This document shows, in pieces, positions 5,204 through 18,598 of a stretch of 20,123 bases of DNA. How positions within the stretch are numbered: position 1 is the first letter of the stretch; each line of letters begins with the position of its first letter. Both the position numbers and the translations under genes were made by a program. The notes below the pieces were generated by a model. That model saw only the letters and a list, made by a program, of their open reading frames with translations. It had not been told where the DNA came from and did no database searches. This stretch comes from a virus: positions 1-20,123 of the IMG/VR virus record IMGVR_UViG_3300038627_000007, one strand, 5' to 3'.

Positions 5204-6229
5204 TTATGTCACTCGCCGGTAAGCAAGCCCAAAATTCCCCGAAATGGGGGCCACCATTTGATCGCCGGATTTTTGAAAGTGGGGGTACACGTCCCATTCG
5301 ACCTCGACTGTCTCTTTGGGGGCTATCAGGTCCATACGTATGTGCCGCACACCCTCAACGTGGCCGGCGAGTAGATATCTCCCAGATGTTTCGTCATACA
5401 GAGTTAAATATGTCGGGAACAGACCGGCGCGACCATTGTATGCATTGGGGGATCGATACATCAGCTTTCGGATGAGACTGTCCCCCGAGGTGGAGTCCGC
5501 GTAGACCCCCTGAAACCGCGCCCTTTGGCTGAAAAATGGTGTCGAGGCACCGATGGAGCCCCCGTTGACTATCGCGAAATCGCGATGATCTCCATAGGAA
5601 TTCACCGGGTGGTGTACATACGCACAGTGCCCCTGGGAATAAAAATTCTGGGCATAGCCCGTGCCGAATGCCATCTGCCCGTAGGCACTAATTACCGAGT
5701 TCCAATTCGCTCCAAAACCCTGCGATGCACTGTACGAATTAACCATATACATTGTCTCCCCTGTCAGAAACTCCCCGCCGGTCCAAGCCCCAAATTTGCT
5801 GACATTTCCGAATGACATATGCGTAAAAACTCCGGGCGTTATCTCTAACGAGAGGCTGACAGAGTCACCCGATGCCGAATATAACCAACTGTTGGAATAT
5901 GGCCCAGCCGGCCGGTTAAGAACCGCAACCTTCAATTTCCGGTACATCCCATCGGCTTGTGTCTCCATATTGGCAACTGTTGGGAGTACCAGCATCATGC
6001 GGCACTCAATCTCCCCGTAGGCCCCAAAATCAGCGTCGGTCTGCTGCATGCCCAGGAACCACCAATAGATTCCGCCTTTTCTGAGGATGTACATGTCTGT
6101 TGTGCTTCCGGCTGGGAGTCCTGCCGAGATTTTTGTCTCCTCAGTAAAGCCAGCGTTATTAACCGCAAAGGTGACTATATCCTGCAGTAGTCCGTCTAAC
6201 GTTGTCGGTGTTCCTGTCTCAAAGGCCAT
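5204..6229 (-). CDS. Putative tail virion protein (341 residues), related to its upstream neighbour
   Basis: The ATG at 6229 has AGAGGG upstream that overlaps the end of the preceding gene (stop at 6238). The protein is Gly, Ser and aromatic rich with no membrane segment or signal peptide. Recognisable landmarks are SWLYSASGDSVSLSLEI, FTHMSFGNVSKFGAWTGGEF and SQRARFQGVYADSTSG, then LFPTYLTLYDETSGRYLLAG near the end. I recall the middle pattern from hypothetical structural proteins of several siphophages, but know no named function. Its place between the tape measure and the tip genes suggests a distal tail component. It may be a distant paralogue of the 321-residue gene before it. Confidence 0.8.
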   Translation of the reverse strand: MAFETGTPTTLDGLLQDIVTFAVNNAGFTEETKISAGLPAGSTTDMYILRKGGIYWWFLGMQQTDADFGAYGEIECRMMLVLPTVANMETQADGMYRKLKVAVLNRPAGPYSNSWLYSASGDSVSLSLEITPGVFTHMSFGNVSKFGAWTGGEFLTGETMYMVNSYSASQGFGANWNSVISAYGQMAFGTGYAQNFYSQGHCAYVHHPVNSYGDHRDFAIVNGGSIGASTPFFSQRARFQGVYADSTSGDSLIRKLMYRSPNAYNGRAGLFPTYLTLYDETSGRYLLAGHVEGVRHIRMDLIAPKETVEVEWDVYPHFQKSGDQMVAPISGNFGLAYRRVT

Positions 6230-6237
6230 AATACCCT

Positions 6238-7203
6238 CTATTCCAATTTTAGGGCCGCATAGTTATTGCGGCCGGTGAGTGCTACGTTCTGGATGATCAG
6301 ATAATCGACCCCACCTATTGTGATGGTGTCCTCGGCGGATAGATCCACCTGGCCGTTGCCTGGGGCATAAAAAACCCCCTGCAGGTCCCCAAGGCATTGC
6401 TCGCTGTCCTCGCCGGTGAACAACACCGCCGGGAGTAGAGAATAACTGCCGTCCAGGTTCCCTTGCAGATCGTAATCGAGGTCCCAGGGCCAGCACGCGG
6501 CGTAGGGGATTGCGCCCGCGGAATAGTCACTGGACCCTATCTGCGCCCACGTGGCACTTGGCAGGCGTATGTTGGCCATTTGATACCCATTTGCGGCCTG
6601 GTACAGGTTGCGGTTATTCGTGGACGTCTGGTTGTAGGCTGCGCCTATCGCCGTTCCGGATATAACATGTGGGTATGGGTATTCTGACGGCAGGCCGTAG
6701 GGCAGCAGGAGACCATTATAACTCATATAAAAGTCACCGCCGATTTTGCACACCACAATAAACCTGCGGCCGTTCGCAATAAACCAATAGTCTATGAGGC
6801 TGTTGACCAGGGTATAGAAACAGGGGCCCTCGTCCTGGATGTTATTGCCCGGCTGATCCTCCCAGGCTGAGCCCGTCAGAAAGGCCGTAGCACCTTGGAT
6901 GTACCAATTATAGATGCTGGAAGAGGATGACCCGTACGTGCGGATGTTTACGTGGATGTTGTCCTGTTGCCCCAGCCCCGGCCCCCGTAAATACACATCA
7001 CGGAAATCCTCGGTATATGTTGGTTGACTGGTTATGCCGGACACGGTATACGATGAAACCACTTCCTCCTTTTCGACAACCCAGTTTTGGCTCAGTGACA
7101 CGAGTGTTGCATTTGTCGTTAAAAAATCTCGGAGTTCGGTCAAAAGCAGATCGTGCCCCGATTCCCCAATCCCCGGGTTGACTTGGCCAGATGTCCATGC
7201 CAT
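6238..7203 (-). CDS. Putative tail virion protein (321 residues) downstream of tape measure
   Basis: The ATG at 7203 is preceded by AAGGAG, which overlaps the tape measure stop at 7216. It has no membrane segment. The core holds NWYIQGATAFLTG, YWFIANGRRFIVVCKIGGDF, and LLPYGLPSEYPYPHVISG. The last stretch is a pattern I remember from uncharacterised phage structural proteins. The C-terminal part (SLLPAVLFTGEDSEQCLGDL) lines up loosely with LFPTYLTLYDETSGRYLLAG in the next gene. Tail location is inferred from position; the function is unknown. Confidence 0.8.
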   Translation of the reverse strand: MAWTSGQVNPGIGESGHDLLLTELRDFLTTNATLVSLSQNWVVEKEEVVSSYTVSGITSQPTYTEDFRDVYLRGPGLGQQDNIHVNIRTYGSSSSSIYNWYIQGATAFLTGSAWEDQPGNNIQDEGPCFYTLVNSLIDYWFIANGRRFIVVCKIGGDFYMSYNGLLLPYGLPSEYPYPHVISGTAIGAAYNQTSTNNRNLYQAANGYQMANIRLPSATWAQIGSSDYSAGAIPYAACWPWDLDYDLQGNLDGSYSLLPAVLFTGEDSEQCLGDLQGVFYAPGNGQVDLSAEDTITIGGVDYLIIQNVALTGRNNYAALKLE

Positions 7204-7215
7204 GTTTATAACTCC

Positions 7216-10200
7216 TTATCTGTTGCTGAGCAACTGCGAGAGCTGCGATGAGTTGCGCTCTATTGCGTTCACCAGTGATCTATCACTTGCATCGCTGTTT
7301 AGGTAATCTTCAACCATATTGGGATCCGTTACAAAAATTTTGGATGTCCCTCCATCAGTTTGCGCCGGCGCCTGGGGCCGGTCTGCGGTGGCCTGTTGGC
7401 TCGGGGTCCGAACTGAAACTGTCTCATTTGGGGATGCCCTAAAAGCCACAAGCTGGCTATCTGCACTTCCTGACCCGCCGACACGAAAAGACCCTCCTGT
7501 TTGATAGCCACCCGCGAACTGTGCGCCCTGGATCTGGCTAATTAACCCCGATGTCTGGGCAACCACTCCCGCAATCGCTGGTATGTTTGCAGGGTACCCT
7601 AATCTGGCGGCATTTGCAATACCTTGTGATATCGCGACCGTGGTTTCTGCGATGGCAAAACCTTTGCTCAGCGCGAAAAGTGCGCGATAGGATTTGGATT
7701 GTTCTCCCGCGAAATTTTTAGTCACTTTCGCCAGAGCCCCAAGGGCATCCGATCCCGCGCTTAGCTGCGTTTTGTACCGCTCCATTTCAATGTTCTGTAT
7801 CTCTGCATTGTGCTGGCGGTTAGCCTCCAGGGACAATGCGAGTGCCTCTTTTTCGGAGATTATCCGTGCTTCCTGGAACTGCTGCACTAAATCCAGTCGA
7901 TGCTGCAAGGTATTTTGGAGCGCTGCCAATTGAGCGTCTCCCTCGGGCATCAGATCCATTTGGAGTTGTTGGAGGTCTCCGCCGAGCTGAGTGCCCCGTA
8001 AGGCGTTGGCGTACTCCCTCGCGTTGATTTTTCCTTGATCCAGGAGCGCATTGGCCGCGGCCAAAGTTTTCTGGTACTCCACCACAGGTTTCCTGATCTG
8101 TTCTAACAGTTTGGTTTGGGCTTTCAGGGCCTCATTTTCAGCGGCAGCGGCAGTGGCCGCGGCAGTGGCCGCGGCAGTGGCCGCGGCAGTGGCAGCGGCA
8201 GCGGCAGCGGCAGCGGGCTGTTGCTGTGCGCTGACGCGAGTCTCGGAAATCTCCCGAGCTCGTTTTTGGATGGCCTCGAAAGCAGGGGTAACCGCAGTGA
8301 TTAGATCGCCCACATAGTCTTGCTGAAACCCACTGACAAAAGCCTCCCGGACCTCGGCGCCAATGCCCTTGATTTTTTCCGATCCGCCATCAGGTCCGAT
8401 TTTGATTTTCACTTCTTTGGGGCCTCGGTTGAGCTGGTCCCAAAGTTTGTCAACGGCAACGCCGACAAGCCCCATTGCCCGAATGGCAAAACCGGCGAAG
8501 GCCTTAAACTGATCCAGGAGGAAACCGAACACACCCTTAAACACGCTTATAATGTACTGACCGGTTTCAGACCCCAAAGCATCAAGTATAACCTCTTTAA
8601 GTCGCCTAAATATAACGAGGCCCGCCCGGGTAAGCCCCACATAATACCCAATAATACCATTCACCGTGGCCCTCGCCGCTTTAAGCACGACACCAAAAGC
8701 GACGCCGAACCCGGAGAGAACCCCCTGCGCTTTCGTGACTGCCCATGTAAACCCATCGCGGATTGTGGCCACAACCGGGCCGACCGATTCAGATATGAGC
8801 TGGAAAGCCGCGACGGCATAGTCCCTCAATGTGACCACACCATCTGCGCTCACCGCTATCCGATCACCGAAAGCTATAAGCAACCCCACAACAATAACTA
8901 TCGCGGTAGCGAGTGCAGCTATTGGGTTTGCAGCAATTGCAGCAGAAAAAGCTCGTGCGCCCGCGGATAGCCGGGGGAATAGCAGGTTGAGCTTGGCGAA
9001 GATACCTGTTGATTTCTTCGTAGCCGCCGCGAGGCTGGTTTGAGCGGCAGCCAACCCTGCGGTTTGCGTCGCCAGCTGGGCCTCAAAGATCGCAACTTGC
9101 TTGAGAACGGCCAGGCGGGCATACTCTGCAGTCGTGCTCCCATGCACAACCACGGCTTTAGAAGCCTCGGCCTGTATTCGCGCAATAGTGGCCCGTGTTG
9201 CCTCTACCTCGGCAGTCCTCGAGGCGACGAGCGCTGCGGCTTTTTGGGTTTCCGCAACAGCGGACCCCAACACAACCACATTTCCCGAGGCGACGGCCGC
9301 GGTAAACTTTAGGGCAGCCACGGCCGATGTGATAAATGCTTCGGCCCGTATTGCGAGGAAGTATGTTGCCCAAGCCGCGGCCCCTGTCACCAACGCCGAT
9401 GTTAATTCCCTTAAATTATCCGCCGTGGATCGGAGAACCGCTGCGAGATCGCGGAATATTTGGGTCAATATTGAGGTCGCGCCGAGATCCCCGAAAGCGA
9501 TTACCACTGCTTCAATTGCAGATTTAACCGACAACAAAGCGCCGTTGAGGTTGTCGTCCATGACGGCTGCAACCTCCTTCGCAAACCCCGCTGAGTTTTT
9601 CAGTGATTCTGTCAACTCCTTAACTTTTGGGATGCCATTAGATAGGACCTCAAAGGCCGGGCCACCCCGATCCCCAAATATTTGCAGTGCTAACCCGGTA
9701 TCAACGCCGGCGGCGGCCAGCCTCTCTAACGCCTTGGTCAGACCAACTTGGGACACCTTCACATCGTCAGCAGAGATACCCAGAGATTTAAATATTTTTT
9801 GCGTGTTCCTTGCCGGGGCCTCGAGCTCTGACAGAATTCGGCGAAGGCCGGTTCCCGCAAGGGATGCCTGGAGGCCAGCATCGGAAAGCGCACCGATTGC
9901 GGCAACCGATTCCTCGAGGCTCACATTCATGCCGGCGGCTACCGGTGCGACAAATTTTGTGGCCTCCCCCAACTGGACTACGGTTGTGTTGGCGCTGTTG
10001 GCGGCTTTGGCAAGCACATCCACAACCTTACCCGTCTTGGATGCCTCAAGCCTAAATCCAGTAAGAACATTGGAGGCTATGTCTGCCGCGGTCCCCAGAT
10101 CTAAAGCCCCCGCCTGAGCGAGCGTTAGCGTCCCCTCAACTGACGCCAGGACTTGCTGTGTCGAGAACCCCGCACGGGCGAGGAACCCCATCGCCTCGGC

Positions 10201-10506
10201 GGCCTGTGTTGCGGAATACCTCGTCGTTGCCCCGAGGTCTTTGGCGGTATTCTTTAGTGCCGCAAATTCGCCAGCGCTGGCGCGAGTTATGGCCCGGACG
10301 TTGGCCATCTCCTGGGAAAAACTTGCAAGTGTTCTCACAGACTGGGCAATCAGCAACCCGCCGCCAATTAGCCCGAAGGCACTGCCTATTGTTCTTCGGA
10401 GTTTATCCGCGGAGTTCTCAATTTTGTTGAGCTCTCCCCGAACTACCTTAGACCCACGACGGGCTCCAGAGGGATCAATTTTGACCTGAACGTCGAAATT
10501 TGCCAT
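7216..10506 (-). CDS. Tail tape measure protein (TP901 type, lambda H-like)
   Basis: This is the longest gene, 1096 residues. It starts at the ATG at 10506 with GGGAG about 12 bases upstream and overlaps the end of the T frame by 32 bases. Residues about 60-330 match the TP901 tape-measure core (SQEMANVRAITRASAGEF, TRYSATQAAEAMGFLARAGF, LSDAGLQASLAGTGLRRILS). A hydrophobic segment at about 525-546 (IAALATAIVIVVGLLIAFGD) could span a membrane during DNA entry. An AAAT repeat linker at about 763-789 precedes a charged helical region. The end (FAGGYQTGGSFRVGGSGSAD) resembles the C-terminus of lambda H and similar proteins. The protein sets tail length. By the usual rule of about 0.15 nm per residue, the shaft would be roughly 160 nm (inference). 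Confidence 0.96.
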   Translation of the reverse strand: MANFDVQVKIDPSGARRGSKVVRGELNKIENSADKLRRTIGSAFGLIGGGLLIAQSVRTLASFSQEMANVRAITRASAGEFAALKNTAKDLGATTRYSATQAAEAMGFLARAGFSTQQVLASVEGTLTLAQAGALDLGTAADIASNVLTGFRLEASKTGKVVDVLAKAANSANTTVVQLGEATKFVAPVAAGMNVSLEESVAAIGALSDAGLQASLAGTGLRRILSELEAPARNTQKIFKSLGISADDVKVSQVGLTKALERLAAAGVDTGLALQIFGDRGGPAFEVLSNGIPKVKELTESLKNSAGFAKEVAAVMDDNLNGALLSVKSAIEAVVIAFGDLGATSILTQIFRDLAAVLRSTADNLRELTSALVTGAAAWATYFLAIRAEAFITSAVAALKFTAAVASGNVVVLGSAVAETQKAAALVASRTAEVEATRATIARIQAEASKAVVVHGSTTAEYARLAVLKQVAIFEAQLATQTAGLAAAQTSLAAATKKSTGIFAKLNLLFPRLSAGARAFSAAIAANPIAALATAIVIVVGLLIAFGDRIAVSADGVVTLRDYAVAAFQLISESVGPVVATIRDGFTWAVTKAQGVLSGFGVAFGVVLKAARATVNGIIGYYVGLTRAGLVIFRRLKEVILDALGSETGQYIISVFKGVFGFLLDQFKAFAGFAIRAMGLVGVAVDKLWDQLNRGPKEVKIKIGPDGGSEKIKGIGAEVREAFVSGFQQDYVGDLITAVTPAFEAIQKRAREISETRVSAQQQPAAAAAAAATAAATAAATAAATAAAAENEALKAQTKLLEQIRKPVVEYQKTLAAANALLDQGKINAREYANALRGTQLGGDLQQLQMDLMPEGDAQLAALQNTLQHRLDLVQQFQEARIISEKEALALSLEANRQHNAEIQNIEMERYKTQLSAGSDALGALAKVTKNFAGEQSKSYRALFALSKGFAIAETTVAISQGIANAARLGYPANIPAIAGVVAQTSGLISQIQGAQFAGGYQTGGSFRVGGSGSADSQLVAFRASPNETVSVRTPSQQATADRPQAPAQTDGGTSKIFVTDPNMVEDYLNSDASDRSLVNAIERNSSQLSQLLSNR
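8141..8216 (-). repeat. In-frame tandem repeat coding an Ala-Ala-Ala-Thr linker
   Basis: The plus strand shows three exact 12-base units, CAGTGGCCGCGG, at 8151-8186. They are flanked by 6-base CAGCGG-like units out to 8216. In the tape measure frame the 12-base unit encodes A-A-A-T. The unit is a multiple of three, so copy changes would keep the frame. Confidence 0.9.
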
Positions 10507-10861
10507 GGGACGGTGCTCCCTTTTTGGGGGTTTTTGTGGCTAATTTTCTCTCATACCAATTGAGATATTTGGTGTCCATCTCTCTAATAATGTACACCAG
10601 GCTGTCGGTGTTTTCTGCATCAAGCTCGGCTCTCTCCGCGTAATGGATTATGTGGTGCCAGGGTATCGGCCCCGGCGGCCCCTCACAAAACTGTCGGCAC
10701 GAGCTCAGGTGATAAAATGCGGTGAGGATGAACTCGTCCCCCGGGTATACTGGCGGCTCCCTCTCCGCCCATTCGGGGAGAGGAAGACCTTTTGCTATTC
10801 GCGCCTGCAGAGAGAATTCTTTTTCCCGGTATTCCAGCTCCCACAACAGGCGCTCTGTTAG
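10475..10861 (-). CDS. Tail assembly chaperone T domain, expressed as G-T fusion by -1 frameshift
   Basis: This frame lies -1 relative to gene G and is entered at the GGGAAAC site (10867-10861). After slippage the next codons read CTA ACA GAG CGC CTG TTG (L-T-E-R-L-L), then WELEYREKEF. The T part is 128 residues. The fusion from 11283 to 10475 would be 269 residues; lambda G-T is 279. T has no ATG of its own near the start, only a possible TTG at 10846 with no good ribosome site, which favours frameshift expression. It contains FILTAFYHLSSCRQFCEG and IPWHHIIHYAERAEL. It ends in a lysine-rich tail (KLATKTPKKGAPSHGKFRR) and overlaps the tape measure start by 32 bases. By analogy, T binds the tube protein while G keeps the tape measure soluble. 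Confidence 0.85.
   Translation of the reverse strand, partial: LTERLLWELEYREKEFSLQARIAKGLPLPEWAEREPPVYPGDEFILTAFYHLSSCRQFCEGPPGPIPWHHIIHYAERAELDAENTDSLVYIIREMDTKYLNWYERKLATKTPKKGAPSHGKFRRSGQN
10801..10853 (-). promoter_or_regulatory. Possible stimulatory stem downstream of the slippery site
   Basis: On the minus strand GCGCCTG (10853-10847) can pair with CAGGCGC (10807-10801), with an added G-U pair. The loop is about 37-39 bases. The first arm begins 7 bases after the heptamer, within the spacing usual for -1 frameshift stimulators. The large loop weakens the case, and lambda itself does not depend on a strong structure. Confidence 0.3.
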
Positions 10862-11283
10862 TTTCCCGATTTTGTCTCGATGTCGGGCATCTCGCCCGAA
10901 AAATTTGAGCTCTTACCGGCGAAGTCCCGAATTTCATCAAACAACCAATCCGGCAACGCGGCGAGAAAATCTGCGCAATTTTCCTTGGTGAACTCTACGG
11001 GCTCCCCATCAGAGTCGAGTATACCGTCCCAGCCGACGATAACAAACTTGGGGAAAAGGTCTCGATCTTGCTCCCGATTCTCTTTTATCATAACCTGGTT
11101 GATTGCCCCGGATTGCACAGCCCGCATGTTGCGGCGGGACCGTTTCAAGACAGCATTGAAATATGGTTTGTTAACTTCCGTCGCCGGCTTCAGGGTGATT
11201 GTGGGTTCCCCATTGATTTGGTAGATCACGAAATCGGCGGTTTTTCCCTTTACATCCAGGTTTTTAAGGTGACTAAAATTCAT
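10858..11283 (-). CDS. Tail assembly chaperone G-like protein (141 residues)
   Basis: The start is the ATG at 11283 (MNFSHLKN), with GGAGGAG six bases upstream. An in-frame TTG further up lies beside that ribosome site and is not a credible start. Lambda gpG is 140 residues, almost the same length. The protein holds KTADFVIYQINGEPTITLKP, VLKRSRRNMRAVQ and DLFPKFVIVGWDGILD. It is acidic towards the end. The gene lies between tube and tape measure and ends S-G-N-stop with GGGAAAC right before TAA. A shortened duplicate lies just upstream. The family is inferred from position, length and the frameshift signal rather than from strong sequence recall. Confidence 0.86.
   Translation of the reverse strand: MNFSHLKNLDVKGKTADFVIYQINGEPTITLKPATEVNKPYFNAVLKRSRRNMRAVQSGAINQVMIKENREQDRDLFPKFVIVGWDGILDSDGEPVEFTKENCADFLAALPDWLFDEIRDFAGKSSNFSGEMPDIETKSGN
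10861..10867 (-). promoter_or_regulatory. -1 programmed ribosomal frameshift heptamer GGGAAAC
   Basis: On the minus strand the last sense codons of gene G read G-GGA-AAC-TAA. This fits X-XXY-YYZ exactly with X=G, Y=A, Z=C, and the TAA follows at once. Lambda uses GGGAAAG for G-T. After a one-base backward slip the tRNAs would re-pair on GGG and AAA, and reading continues in the T frame to 10475. Confidence 0.88.
10943..11073 (-). repeat. Coding repeat shared by gene G and its shortened duplicate (copy 1)
   Basis: This 131-base stretch matches 11354-11484 at 124 positions by my count. All seven differences are transitions. Five are silent; two give F/L and I/V changes. Confidence 0.85.
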
Positions 11284-11355
11284 TTTTTGCTCCTCCAATT
11301 TTTATGTTTCGCGGGATTTAGTTGACTCTTAGTTTACCACATTGCCAGCCCTAAA
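11259..11355 (-). repeat. Leader direct repeat, copy 1
   Basis: This stretch matches 11487-11583 over 97 bases with one G/A difference near 11321. It holds the first codons of gene G, its ribosome site and the upstream leader. It also holds one arm (11336-11349) of the stem-loop that is complete at 11564-11601. Confidence 0.9.
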
Positions 11356-11511
11356 CCAATCCGGCAACGCGGCGAGAAGATCTGCGCAGTTTTCTTTAGT
11401 GAACTCTACGGGCTCCCCATCAGAGTCGAGTACGCCATCCCAGCCGACGATAACAAACTTGGGGAAAAGGTCTCGATCTTGCTCACGGTTTTTAAGGTGA
11501 CTAAAATTCAT
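11329..11511 (-). CDS. Shortened duplicate of gene G (60 residues), possible remnant or mini-chaperone
   Basis: It starts at the ATG at 11511 with the same GGAGGAG site as gene G. It reads MNFSHLKN, then jumps in frame over the 61 residues that follow in gene G, and continues REQDRDLFPKFVIVGWDG through AALPDW. After that it reads into a copied half of the stem-loop arm, giving FRAGNVVN and a stop. It therefore lacks the basic middle part, the acidic end and the slippery site. The frame has stayed open and most differences from gene G are silent, so it could still be translated. A simple decaying remnant is equally possible. Confidence 0.65.
   Translation of the reverse strand: MNFSHLKNREQDRDLFPKFVIVGWDGVLDSDGEPVEFTKENCADLLAALPDWFRAGNVVN
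11354..11484 (-). repeat. Coding repeat shared by gene G and its shortened duplicate (copy 2)
   Basis: Partner of 10943-11073, offset by 411 bases. The leader copy joined to it (11487-11583) is offset by only 228 bases. The 183-base difference is the in-frame internal deletion. Confidence 0.85.
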
Positions 11512-11583
11512 TTTTTGCTCCTCCAATTTTTATGTTTCGCGGGATTTAATTGACTCTTAGTTTACCACATTGCCAGCCCTAAA
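11487..11583 (-). repeat. Leader direct repeat, copy 2
   Basis: Partner of 11259-11355. This copy leads into the complete stem-loop after the tube gene, so it keeps the likely original junction. Copy 1 breaks off at CTAAA, where the sequence changes to gene G coding sequence. Confidence 0.88.
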
Positions 11584-11601
11584 TCAAGCTGGCAATGTGG
11601 T
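11564..11601 (-). terminator. Strong stem-loop after the tail tube gene (terminator-like or mRNA stabiliser)
   Basis: A perfect 14-base inverted repeat (ACCACATTGCCAGC and GCTGGCAATGTGGT) surrounds a 10-base loop, starting 5 bases after the tube stop codon. The minus strand continues AAACTAAG, with no T-run, so it is not a full intrinsic terminator. A partial attenuator or protection of the abundant upstream message is more likely. Confidence 0.6.
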
Positions 11602-11606
11602 GTTGA

Positions 11607-13088
11607 TTAGGGCACATACGGGAACTGAGTTACTCCGAGGGAGGTCCCCAGGGTTGTATCCCCAAATGCCTGTGCTGTCGTGTTCATCAGTATGGACTCA
11701 TTGACCGGGAATTCCCGGTCGCCGCCGCCGAGGGTCATGCTCGGGATGTCTACCAGGATGGCCCCGTCGTCGTTAGCGATTGAGAAATCCATGGTGACGG
11801 TTGTGTTGTTCCGAATCGCGGTTACCACATCCGAATCGGTGAACAGCAATTGAGCTTCGATGTCAATTTCGAAATTACCGGAGTTCATGTATTTCGCGCC
11901 CAGTTGGCCGAGGACTTTTTCGGGGCTCACGTTGTTGTTGATGTTAAAAGTCAATGATTTAAAATCCGTTGTCAAACCGGTCTCGTCAACCTCGGTGATC
12001 CGCAACCGGGCGATGTCTGCTGAGGTATTAAACGCACCAGTCTGCACCGGTACAACCGGGCTGTCAGCATTGGTCGCCCGCGTAGTGGATGGGGGCTCGG
12101 TATCCGTGCCCACAAAAGCGAATGTTACCGATGCTTTATCCGTCAGGGGGAGCTCAAACCCAACGGTATTGCAGTAATTCCCTTTTGCGTATTCATATTC
12201 GTCGGTACCAACGCCACCGAGATCCTGATAGGCACCCTCAAACTGAAAGCTGCGCTCCAGGTAGTCCCCATCGTCGACGGACACATTGCGGACAAAACGT
12301 CCGAAATACAGGTCAACCTCCTGTGTGGTGTTGGCTTCGGTTACGAACGTCTGGCTCTTCTTATCGAGAGTGAGCAGGTTCGCAGCAATGGCTGTTACGC
12401 GGGCATAGCCGGCGTTTTCGGCATTGGAGAACTGATTCAAAGCCGCATCGCCACCAACCCAGATTGCTTGACCGACGGTGAGGTCCAAGGTTGTGAAGTC
12501 CAGGGCTGTACTTGTCAGGTTTCCGTTTGCATCCACATCGAGATCACCTGCCGCGGATCGAAACCCGCAGACATCGACGCTTACGTTCTGCGTCGCGGGG
12601 ATTGCGGCCTCGTCCGTCAGATCGGTGGTGACTGGAATTGTGGTTGTGGTGGAACCAGAATCGACCAATTTAAGGCCATTGTTTGCAGAGTTTGTGAACC
12701 CCCGAGCATAAACCAGGGTGTTTTGGGCCATCGCCGACGAAATGGTCGGGATCGTGTACTCATCGGTAGCGCCACCGGTAACAGCAGTCGGGACGGTGTG
12801 CTCAGGCCCAACGAAGTCGGAGAAACAGAAGCCCTCGATAAAATCGATGAAATGCTCCAGCGTCAGATCGGCGTCGAATTCAACAGCGCTGTCGAGGTCT
12901 GTAACGGTCCCCTTACGGCGCTGGCGACTTTTGCTTATTGGACTGCGGGCAACTGTGGTCACCGTCGCGCCGAAGGTGCTTATCGCGTTTGGCTCAAGCA
13001 CCTTCCACGAGGGTGACCCAGGTAACGTCCCCAGACTCGACTCAATTGCGTAGGCCAGGGAAAAATTGTTTGTTAGTGTGCGTGACAT
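11607..13088 (-). CDS. Major tail tube protein (Phage_tube_2 type)
   Basis: The product is 493 residues. It starts at the ATG at 13088 behind AGGAGGAG, which overlaps the stop of the terminator gene. The N-terminus has SLAYAIESSLGTLPGSPSWK, then SRQRRKGTVTDLDSAVEFDA and LTLEHFIDFIEGF. The C-terminal half has FVRNVSVDDGDYLERSFQFE, NNNVSPEKVLGQLGAKYMN and IPSMTLGGGDREFPVNESIL. I recognise this as the tube protein pattern of siphophages. It polymerises into stacked rings around the tape measure. The position between the tail terminator and the G/T pair is the standard one. It is longer than many tube proteins, and residues about 110-280 may hold an added beta domain. A strong stem-loop follows. 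Confidence 0.9.
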   Translation of the reverse strand: MSRTLTNNFSLAYAIESSLGTLPGSPSWKVLEPNAISTFGATVTTVARSPISKSRQRRKGTVTDLDSAVEFDADLTLEHFIDFIEGFCFSDFVGPEHTVPTAVTGGATDEYTIPTISSAMAQNTLVYARGFTNSANNGLKLVDSGSTTTTIPVTTDLTDEAAIPATQNVSVDVCGFRSAAGDLDVDANGNLTSTALDFTTLDLTVGQAIWVGGDAALNQFSNAENAGYARVTAIAANLLTLDKKSQTFVTEANTTQEVDLYFGRFVRNVSVDDGDYLERSFQFEGAYQDLGGVGTDEYEYAKGNYCNTVGFELPLTDKASVTFAFVGTDTEPPSTTRATNADSPVVPVQTGAFNTSADIARLRITEVDETGLTTDFKSLTFNINNNVSPEKVLGQLGAKYMNSGNFEIDIEAQLLFTDSDVVTAIRNNTTVTMDFSIANDDGAILVDIPSMTLGGGDREFPVNESILMNTTAQAFGDTTLGTSLGVTQFPYVP

Positions 13089-15206: not shown

Positions 15207-16427
15207 CTACGTCGCGTATTTGATTAATATTGACCCGGCGCCCTGCGAGGCCCCGGAGAGCGTCAGGGTACCGGTAACTTGAGCACTGGATTCGTCCACC
15301 CAGCTGTCACCCTTATAAATGCCTAACGTTGTGAGATCAATATGAGTATCCGGAGCGACGGCATCGTCATCGCCTGCATCCCCGATATCCAGAATGGGGG
15401 TTGTGCCATCAAAAATTGTACTCACCCGCACCACCCACCCAATTACGTATGCGCCAGTAGGAAGAGCGCTGCCAACATTGAACGGGGATGCGGTGTCGTA
15501 CGCGAAATCCACTTTTTTGTACTGCAGCGAGTCTTTAGCTGATAATGTTCCCGCGCTGTGCTCGATTGTGTCCTCATCCACGGTCACACCCGCGCCGTTA
15601 GCGCCCACTGTTAGGGGCGCAACTGTTGTTCCCGTTGTGACGTCGGGCTTAATCTCCAGGCCGCCGTTGCCGCCGTCGAACTGGATAGCACCGTCGGACT
15701 CCAGATTGATCTGGATGTCGTTTGCCGTTTCGGTCAATCCCGCTGCGGTGTCAATGACATCAGTCACGTCGACCGAAAACTGTAGCGTAGACAGGTCCAG
15801 CCCGTCGCCAGCAGTATATGCTCCAACGCTCGAAAACTGTGTCCAGGATATGGAATCCGTCCCGACTGTAGCAACACTACCCGTTTGCACCCAACCCGTG
15901 GCGGCATTCGCGGTGCCACTCTCGATAAAAACAAAATCGCCTGGCTCGATCTCGGCGGCCTCATCAAAATCAGTAACCCGCGTCAGAACCCAAAAGGTAT
16001 CCACGGCGTTCCCAACCTCAGTCACGGTGTAAACACCGTTCTCCTCGGCGCTGGTCTGATCCTTCACCAGGATTCGCTGGCCAGCAACTGCCTGGGTTCC
16101 ATCCGGCGCGAAGGCCTCGTATGAGGTGTTACGGGTAATCGTTGCGCCGACCCCGAGTGTCCCATTATCATAGGTCACAGTCCCGAGGTCTGCTGTCGTT
16201 GCGTAGACCGCGGATTCCAGGACGTCGAGTCCCTCAATGGCCGAATCAAGTTGCGCTTTTGTCACGACGTCGTTGGACGCGGATCCATTGGCCGCCCGCA
16301 GAATGACATATGCGTCGTCCGCGGCATTCCTGGCCTCAATAACGCCCGAGCTGTTTTTGACCCGGGGTCCACCCTGGGATAACTCCACGTTCTCACTGAT
16401 ACCGGTCAATCCATAATTTTTGCTCAT
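15207..16427 (-). CDS. Fibre-like virion protein (406 residues), shares N-terminal domain with upstream fibre
   Basis: The ATG at 16427 has AAGGGAG upstream, partly overlapping the stop of the first fibre gene (16439). Residues 1-65 (MSKNYGLTGISENVELSQGG and onward, up to VTKAQLDSAIEGLD) match the first fibre closely. Residues about 70-200 are a fibre module I know from many phages: GQRILVKDQTSAEENGVYTV, FWVLTRVTDFDEAAEIEPGD, VFIESGTANAATGWVQTG. The rest is beta-rich, low in charge variety, and ends in GAGSILIKYAT. This is probably a trimeric fibre. Its place between capsid and neck genes fits a head fibre as well as a tail fibre. No enzyme or chaperone domain was seen. Confidence 0.8.
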   Translation of the reverse strand: MSKNYGLTGISENVELSQGGPRVKNSSGVIEARNAADDAYVILRAANGSASNDVVTKAQLDSAIEGLDVLESAVYATTADLGTVTYDNGTLGVGATITRNTSYEAFAPDGTQAVAGQRILVKDQTSAEENGVYTVTEVGNAVDTFWVLTRVTDFDEAAEIEPGDFVFIESGTANAATGWVQTGSVATVGTDSISWTQFSSVGAYTAGDGLDLSTLQFSVDVTDVIDTAAGLTETANDIQINLESDGAIQFDGGNGGLEIKPDVTTGTTVAPLTVGANGAGVTVDEDTIEHSAGTLSAKDSLQYKKVDFAYDTASPFNVGSALPTGAYVIGWVVRVSTIFDGTTPILDIGDAGDDDAVAPDTHIDLTTLGIYKGDSWVDESSAQVTGTLTLSGASQGAGSILIKYAT

Positions 16428-16438
16428 GCTTCACTCCC

Positions 16439-18598
16439 TTACCAGGTCGATATAGCAACCCGTTTCCATGTATCCGTTGCGACGCATACATAGATGTAAT
16501 TTGTATCCCAGGCAATATCCCCCTGGTTGCCCGTATCCGATGCCGATGCCGGAGTTTTTGACGTCCTCAATCTCACGGTGTCACTGTTGATATCTAATTT
16601 TGTGGTAGGCGACATCACACCAATACCAACATTACCGGTAATATAAGAATCGCCTGAACCATCCACCTGCAGTTCGCTGGCAACTACTTTAAAAACACCG
16701 TTAGTACCCGGAGAAACTTCAATATTTCCACTGGCAGTTTCATTCACTATACTATAAGTTTGCGTTCCGGAACTACCAAAACCAACATACCCGACACGGC
16801 TCGTATTATCTCCCCTATAATATTCAATGGTGCTATTTACCTCTGTATCGGTGCTGGCTCCTGTGTCAGACTGCCTTATATTTGCTCCCAAATTACCTGA
16901 TAGGTGTAAAGAGGCTGATGGACTATCTGTTCCAATACCAACTTTACTATCATCATCAATATAAACACCAGAACCTTCTACGGCTGTAGTTCCATCATAC
17001 CTCGCTACTTGTTGGTCTGTTCCAGCAGTATAATCAGGCTTTGCGGACACGAGGCTATCCACCTCGGTCTCGGTGTAGTAACGGCCATCGTGAGAACTTC
17101 CAGCTTCATGCGTTGTTATCTCGCCGTCAACATAGGTCTTAACTGCTTGCTCAGTGGGCACGGCGTCATCACTGTTACCCGCCAGGGTTCCATCAATGGA
17201 AAACTCATTTATTCCGGTACCATTCTGAAGTGAGAGTTTTCCGTCTGTGTCGAGTGTCAGTCGTATGGCGGCCGCGTCCTCATCAGTAATGTTGAAGTCG
17301 GGGGTGTTCGTCGAGTTGATGGAAAACCGTTTGCCCGCGTTGCTCTCCAAGGATAGACTCGCCTCTTGTCCCTGGATGTGGACGGGGTCCAGGGGAGCCT
17401 CAGTTCCGACTCCGATTCTTTCCGAAATGATCAGGTCATCATCCTCGTATATATCCCCCAGAGTTTTAAGTGTGCCATTTGCCACGTCCCCCAATGTGGC
17501 AAAATGCCTGTTGGAGAAGGACACCAGCGTGTCCCCTGCCCCGACAAAGTATCGTCGGTTGTTGGCGAAACCTGACACATAGTAGGCGTTGAAACTGGCG
17601 TCCAGGTCTGCGTTATCAGACGCGCTGTCGAAATACAGGGCATACCCATCGCCCGCACCGTTGCCCGCGCAACTGAGTTGGATTTTGGTGTATTGTTTCA
17701 CGTACCCATCGCCCCCGTACACCCCAATAGGCGTGCATATATCTGCGTTGGAGGCGTTGTTGGACGTGGCCGCTATAGTCGCGATCTCGCAGAGTATCTG
17801 CCCCTCACTCAAGTCATTTATGACCGACAGATTGCCACTGCTGGCGCCTATAGTGCCCCTCGCTATACTCCGCAGGTAATAAAAAAGATTGTTATCCGTC
17901 TGCAAGTTTATGGGAGCGAAGGTTCCACCGACCGCCGAAGTATTTGACATCGTGTAGTTGAGCGAAACCGAGATCATATATAGGCCAACGCCGCAAGCGG
18001 CATCGATTGCCTTGGGTTGTATGGCTGCAGTCGAGGACATTGTTATGTCACTGTGCTCCACGCGATAAAACCCGGTCACGCCAGCCCCCGCGGTTGCGTC
18101 GAGCAGCACGTCCGAGCTGGAAGTGGGGGTCATCTGCAAATCAATCCAGTCAACGTGTGCCTCTATACTTGGGAGGGTTAGCAGTGTGCCCGATGTGGCG
18201 GTGATCTTAGCCCCCCGTCGGCCGTCTGCGCCTATAAGGGTCACATAGTTTTTAAGGACCACATTTTCCGCATACTCCCCGGGATAGACAATAACTGCGT
18301 ATCTGTTATCGTCGGCGGCATCGGTGATGCTGTCGATGGCGCTTTGAATGGAGCTGTGTTCTGCACCGCTCTTGGCCACAAACCTGACTCCTGCATAGGA
18401 GATAGGGACCAAGGCGTCCAGTTGGCCCTTGGTAACTGCATCATTTGCGGCGGAGCCATCCGCGCACCTCAGCACCGAGTATGCGTCGTCGGCATTGTTG
18501 CGCGCCTCGACGGCACCTGAATTGTTTTTAATCCGAGGCCCACCCTTGGCCAGTTCGACGTTGGCGCTCGCCCCGGATAATCCATATCGCTTGCTCAT
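16439..18598 (-). CDS. Fibre/spike-like virion protein with beta-helix (719 residues)
   Basis: The ATG at 18598 has AGGGGAGG upstream. Residues 1-62 are the domain shared with the 406-residue fibre (GLSGASANVELAKGGPRIKN, VEARNNADDAYSVLR, VTKGQLD). Residues about 70-370 look like a right-handed beta-helix of pectate-lyase type (HSSIQSAIDSI, YAVIVYPGEYAENVVLKNYV, TLIGADGRRGAKI). From about 395 there are fibre repeats of the form GVGTEAPLDPVHIQG and GIGTDSPSASLHLSG. The end (NQGDIAWDTNYIYVCVATDT, WKRV) is a common phage fibre C-terminus. DNA coding residues about 523-680 is markedly AT-richer than its surroundings. Polysaccharide binding or cleavage is possible, but I could not point to catalytic residues. 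Confidence 0.83.
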   Translation of the reverse strand: MSKRYGLSGASANVELAKGGPRIKNNSGAVEARNNADDAYSVLRCADGSAANDAVTKGQLDALVPISYAGVRFVAKSGAEHSSIQSAIDSITDAADDNRYAVIVYPGEYAENVVLKNYVTLIGADGRRGAKITATSGTLLTLPSIEAHVDWIDLQMTPTSSSDVLLDATAGAGVTGFYRVEHSDITMSSTAAIQPKAIDAACGVGLYMISVSLNYTMSNTSAVGGTFAPINLQTDNNLFYYLRSIARGTIGASSGNLSVINDLSEGQILCEIATIAATSNNASNADICTPIGVYGGDGYVKQYTKIQLSCAGNGAGDGYALYFDSASDNADLDASFNAYYVSGFANNRRYFVGAGDTLVSFSNRHFATLGDVANGTLKTLGDIYEDDDLIISERIGVGTEAPLDPVHIQGQEASLSLESNAGKRFSINSTNTPDFNITDEDAAAIRLTLDTDGKLSLQNGTGINEFSIDGTLAGNSDDAVPTEQAVKTYVDGEITTHEAGSSHDGRYYTETEVDSLVSAKPDYTAGTDQQVARYDGTTAVEGSGVYIDDDSKVGIGTDSPSASLHLSGNLGANIRQSDTGASTDTEVNSTIEYYRGDNTSRVGYVGFGSSGTQTYSIVNETASGNIEVSPGTNGVFKVVASELQVDGSGDSYITGNVGIGVMSPTTKLDINSDTVRLRTSKTPASASDTGNQGDIAWDTNYIYVCVATDTWKRVAISTW
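16561..17030 (-). other. AT-rich module within the fibre gene
   Basis: Counting the six lines 16681-17040 gives 150 G or C in 360 bases, about 42%. The line at 17041-17100 gives 58% and the line at 16501-16560 gives 55%. The change falls within the coding frame, which stays open. It matches the C-terminal fibre repeats and suggests a recently acquired piece. Confidence 0.7.

Follow-up and report, generated by a model that had tools for sequence, protein, structure and literature searches.

Tail gene order and the shortened copy of G

Is a second, truncated copy of a tail assembly chaperone gene, lying directly beside the complete one, a new small gene or the remnant of a rearrangement? The question is raised by a 20,123-base uncultured virus record, an IMG/VR fragment (the window, analysed here over its whole length), whose minus strand carries the tail genes, first the tail terminator and tube genes, next the short G copy, and then G, T, and tape measure. 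The locus displays, base by base, how a phage tail gene is copied at a hairpin and trimmed without loss of frame, and rearrangements of this kind supply raw material from which small new proteins of phages can come. Were the short protein made and used, it would be a third partner in the G/G-T stoichiometry that is known to be essential to tail assembly. As it stands, the rearrangement is clear but unremarkable, and belongs to a single uncultured phage. All features of the tail locus given below are on the minus strand.

By its protein family match, predicted fold, synteny, and slip site, the intact G (10858-11283, 141 codons) is judged to be a genuine tail assembly chaperone. It matches PHROG 313 over residues 1-129 (E = 3e-20), and a Pfam search with G alone gave no match. 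Its AlphaFold model (pLDDT 81) has predicted tail assembly chaperones as its best named fold matches, with E values of about 1e-5; none of the solved structures matched G, either by sequence or by fold. The gene sits between the tube gene (11607-13088; Pfam Phage_tube_2, E = 3e-27; PHROG 290, E = 3e-64) and the tape measure gene (7216-10506). The GGGAAAC slippery site at its end (10861-10867) recurs in the nearest relatives in the same form, GGGAAAC-TAAC, and is followed by the overlapping T frame, −1 relative to G and extending to 10475 (10475-10846; Pfam Phage_TAC_18, E = 3e-14; PHROG 3817), so that frameshifting is predicted from the sequence. In position, GGGAAAC site, −1 T frame, and family and predicted-fold matches, the intact gene resembles the G/G-T pair of lambda-like siphophages (PHROG 313, PHROG 3817/Phage_TAC_18). 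Unlike that pair, it has an extra shortened copy upstream, and no second copy of this type was found in relatives.

Two sets of direct repeats (11259-11372/11487-11600 and 10943-11079/11354-11490), of a length far beyond chance, define the duplication. The first is a leader repeat, whose upstream copy (11487-11583) holds the loop and 3′ arm of a stem-loop, the leader, the ribosome site, and the first 8 codons, and whose downstream copy (11259-11355) lies 5′ of the intact G; its 97-nt core has 96 matches, the sole difference falling at 11321/11549. The second is a coding repeat, at 11354-11484 in the short copy and 10943-11073 in the intact one, with 124 of the 131 nt in its core identical and seven different. 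These figures agree to the base with the original prediction, made from the sequence alone, and bear out its reading that G was partly copied into the space that separates it from the tube gene.

The short copy is an open reading frame of 60 codons (11329-11511; PHROG 313, E = 4.5e-11) with its ATG at 11511 and a stop ending at 11329. Its product comprises residues 1-8 and 70-113/114 of G, followed by FRAGNVVN, eight codons read out of the loop and 3′ arm of the stem-loop, as had been proposed for its new 3′ end. The alignment places the missing segment at 11077-11259 of the intact gene, 183 nt or codons 9-69, matching the predicted in-frame loss of 61 codons. The start codon and ribosome site are intact, also as predicted, with GGAGGAG (11518-11524) 5′ of the ATG, and the sequence would allow the short copy to be translated independently, from a start of its own.

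Hairpins at the tube-G junction

The stem-loop that supplied the new 3′ end lies directly after the tube stop (11564-11601), with a 16-bp stem, a 6-nt loop, and no U-tract. Its predicted folding energy of −28.7 kcal/mol (z = −7.7) was equalled by 0 of 200 shuffled sequences, an inverted match was also recorded there, and the structure is judged real. It was rejected as an intrinsic terminator, as it has no U-tract and none was called on it. A feature that the original prediction missed is a hybrid hairpin at the duplication junction (11336-11373), in which a G-derived 5′ arm pairs with a stem-loop-derived 3′ arm over 13 bp, so that the junction rebuilds a hairpin 5′ of the intact G. This hybrid is weaker (−20.6 kcal/mol, z = −3.6) and ranks 8th of the 406 possible breakpoints in G.

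Hairpins after the tube stop also occur in many relatives in which the gap between tube and G exceeds 50 nt. Strong examples directly follow the stop in loci L005, L006, L009, L026, L028, L053-L056, and others, and their sequences are unrelated. About a third of the relatives have a short gap, of 10-40 nt, and no hairpin. The post-tube hairpins may possibly represent an RNA element of conserved position and variable sequence.

A single copy in related phages

Named relatives of the phage include the Roseobacter RDJL, Ruegeria Tedan, Pseudomonas RSP, and Shewanella S0112 phages, to which G is only 41-52% alike; uncultured contigs are closer, at up to 82% for the tube protein and up to 70% for G. 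In RDJL, S0112, and related records (L005, L006, L008), the tube homolog is annotated as major capsid protein, although it matches Phage_tube_2 by way of the protein in the window. Because an alignment of nine G proteins was too variable for scanning, loci were reached through the tube protein in viral contigs and genomes and the neighboring G was then read. This gave 82 tube-related metagenomic loci with G next to the tube gene, encoding 60 distinct full-length G proteins.

In none of these 82 loci does the space between tube and G contain another G-like stretch, and when 87 loci were each compared with themselves, no repeat appeared at the tube-G junction. Each of 223 phage records with a G match has one G-like place, and scans of viral contigs with a single G protein, with the junction sequence, and with the exact stem-loop found nothing. 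The duplication therefore appears private to this record, with G single-copy in relatives, a statement that holds above the strain level since the search set may omit records nearly identical to the window. The literature searched, largely open access, nowhere describes a second chaperone copy that has been shortened. The duplicated and diverged tail-tube genes of the Vandenendeviridae are likewise a tandem tail-gene duplication beside the chaperone locus (PMC12846349); there the tube copies are full length and family-wide, whereas here a single record has the duplication and one of its copies is truncated.

Longer tube-G gaps in 3 loci were considered as possible G fragments and rejected once their sequences had been read, since what fills them is unrelated inserted DNA of 0.3-0.95 kb (L062, 4551-5507; L068, 4566-4872; L075, 4599-5002). 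The insertion in L068 contains an ORF of the 88-codon class and that in L075 a reverse-strand stretch, and from such sequences the tube-G gap seems to accept insertions.

Origin of the duplication

The head-to-tail arrangement of the copies, the homology at the breakpoint, and the single copy in relatives identify a partial tandem duplication. The duplication is real in the sequence, was found in this record alone among those searched, and has one copy shortened by an in-frame deletion. We consider probable the account given below, in which the short copy is most likely a remnant that plays no part in tail assembly. The unit would have been 411 bp before the deletion and is 228 bp after it. 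At the outer junction, TTGCCGGATTGGTT, with which the copied part of G ends, is similar to TTGCCAGCTTGATT in the 5′ arm and loop of the stem-loop. The junction had been predicted to lie where ATTGGTT of G resembles CTTGATTT in the loop, and on the left side of the breakpoint 11 of 15 positions are indeed identical, a level reached by 0.02% of all pairs of breakpoints in G and the leader. The two ends of the inner deletion share only AACC/AATC.

A plausible sequence of events starts with a tandem duplication of about 411 bp, covering the loop of the stem-loop, the leader, and the first 114 or so codons of G, joined where TTGCCGGATTGGTT would have met the resembling TTGCCAGCTTGATT. The 183-bp in-frame deletion within the upstream copy may have come later or together with the duplication. 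The duplication was probably caused at the hairpin by template switching or by illegitimate recombination, and duplications by short-homology events of this type are similar in their head-to-tail unit, imperfect breakpoint homology at a hairpin, and secondary deletion. The intact G, with its own leader, ribosome site, and rebuilt hairpin, would presumably allow the phage to tolerate the insertion. What differs from such duplications is that the leader and the coding block have diverged unequally, which points to an added allele exchange or conversion.

The unequal divergence is seen in the distribution of the differences. The copies differ at eight coding positions, six of them silent, and the two replacements, I88V and F106L, occur in the G of relatives (V in 41 of 61, L in 5 of 61). 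In the shared coding block, about 6 of 28 silent sites differ (dN 0.020, dS 0.245, dN/dS about 0.08) versus 1 of 97 positions in the leader (p = 0.0005), and seven of nine differences cluster within 59 nt (p = 0.02), all of these being small counts with statistics chosen after the data were seen. Some constraint contributes to the low divergence of the leader, which includes the ribosome site and eight codons. The suggestion in the original prediction that a remnant might have been caught early is consistent with the nearly identical leader but conflicts with the silent sites. Leader and coding block thus do not appear to share one clock, and a single duplication would not be expected to yield such divergence. 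The mismatch is best explained by a coding block taken from a diverged allele, or by homogenization of the leaders, either of which suggests a mosaic history. An attempt to polarize the silent differences by the nearest relatives failed, third positions being saturated.

Possible function of the short copy

The original prediction had left two possibilities, a 60-residue protein that competes with or tunes G/G-T, or a remnant. The evidence favors the remnant, and no sign of a role in G/G-T assembly was found. The short copy has lost the two N-terminal strands, helix 39-56, the first half of helix 64-81, and everything past residue 114, including the conserved C-terminal helix at 112-123 (FDxxRxF...NF). 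The new stop at 11329 comes before the slip site, so the GGGAAAC is missing and no G-T can be made. Neither the full N-terminal domain and C-terminal helix of a chaperone nor the slip site required for the G-T fusion is present, so the short copy most likely has no role in tail assembly. The model of the short protein is poor (pLDDT 59, pTM 0.30), although small proteins often model poorly.

It seems unlikely that the short copy is instead a working gene, its product a truncated 60-residue G that would tune chaperone stoichiometry and have G, G-T, or the tape measure protein as its binding partner, after an old duplication in which selection held both leader and coding block. The start, ribosome site, and frame are intact, the deletion is in frame, and the residues kept include R70-P111, the best-conserved stretch of the protein; the low dN/dS and conservative replacements also fit, and the G:G-T balance is essential in other phages, as the TP901-1 mutants show (PMC4493119). 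Against this stand the lost domains and slip site and the poor model, together with the lack of the short copy in every relative searched. On the assumption that every change postdates the duplication, such an excess of silent differences would be expected in a neutral short copy with p = 0.03-0.09, a range set by the choice of transition bias, which is weak evidence of selection. It was rejected as proof, since a diverged full-length allele predicts the silent excess equally well. If the coding block did come from such an allele, the excess would reflect selection on full-length G in another phage rather than on the short copy, and the mosaic history in this way weakens the case for selection. 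Selection also hardly explains a leader that is 99% identical beside silent sites at about 79%, because the leader differs strongly from that of the nearest relative (L018). More doubtful still is the more specific proposal of a third product of the G locus, made from a gene of its own and not by frameshifting, in which the 60 residues would form a truncated chaperone, kept by selection, with an influence on tape-measure binding or on the ratio of G to G-T.

An effect in cis also looks unlikely. The added leader, ORF, and hairpin would here alter the output of G relative to the tube protein, for instance by keeping ribosomes on the message or through the weaker second hairpin, and the peptide would be irrelevant. 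The strong stem-loop directly after the tube stop, the hairpins at this position in many relatives with longer gaps, and the 13-bp hairpin rebuilt before the intact G are consistent with such a role. However, the stem-loop lacks a U-tract and was not predicted to be a terminator, the third or so of relatives with a short gap and no hairpin indicate that it is dispensable, and the hybrid hairpin may be no more than a consequence of the breakpoint homology.

Least probable is an assembly artifact merging two strain variants in a metagenomic contig, as might be suspected of an uncultured IMG/VR fragment whose copies differ like alleles and whose duplication is in no other record, but at each of the two novel junctions the shared sequence is 2-4 identical bases and not a long word, the longest identical run between the copies (62 nt) is below a typical read, and the outcome preserves frame, start, and ribosome site.

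Other repeats and paralogs

Elsewhere in the window, 2 adjacent minus-strand genes for fibre- or decoration-like proteins (15207-16427 and 16439-18598) are 67% identical over their first 64 residues and divergent thereafter, which by sequence comparison marks them as a second, older partial duplication. Another adjacent pair on the minus strand (5204-6229 and 6238-7203), each matching PHROG 687 (structural protein), are likely old paralogs too diverged for BLAST to join. A 12-nt tandem repeat at 8127-8222 encodes an alanine/threonine-rich stretch of the tape measure protein. Outside the window, a 219-kb contig filed as an Alteromonadaceae genome (JAESPQ010000022.1) carries four tube loci (L098-L101) spaced about 65 kb apart and looks like a phage concatemer or an assembly repeat that was binned as host.
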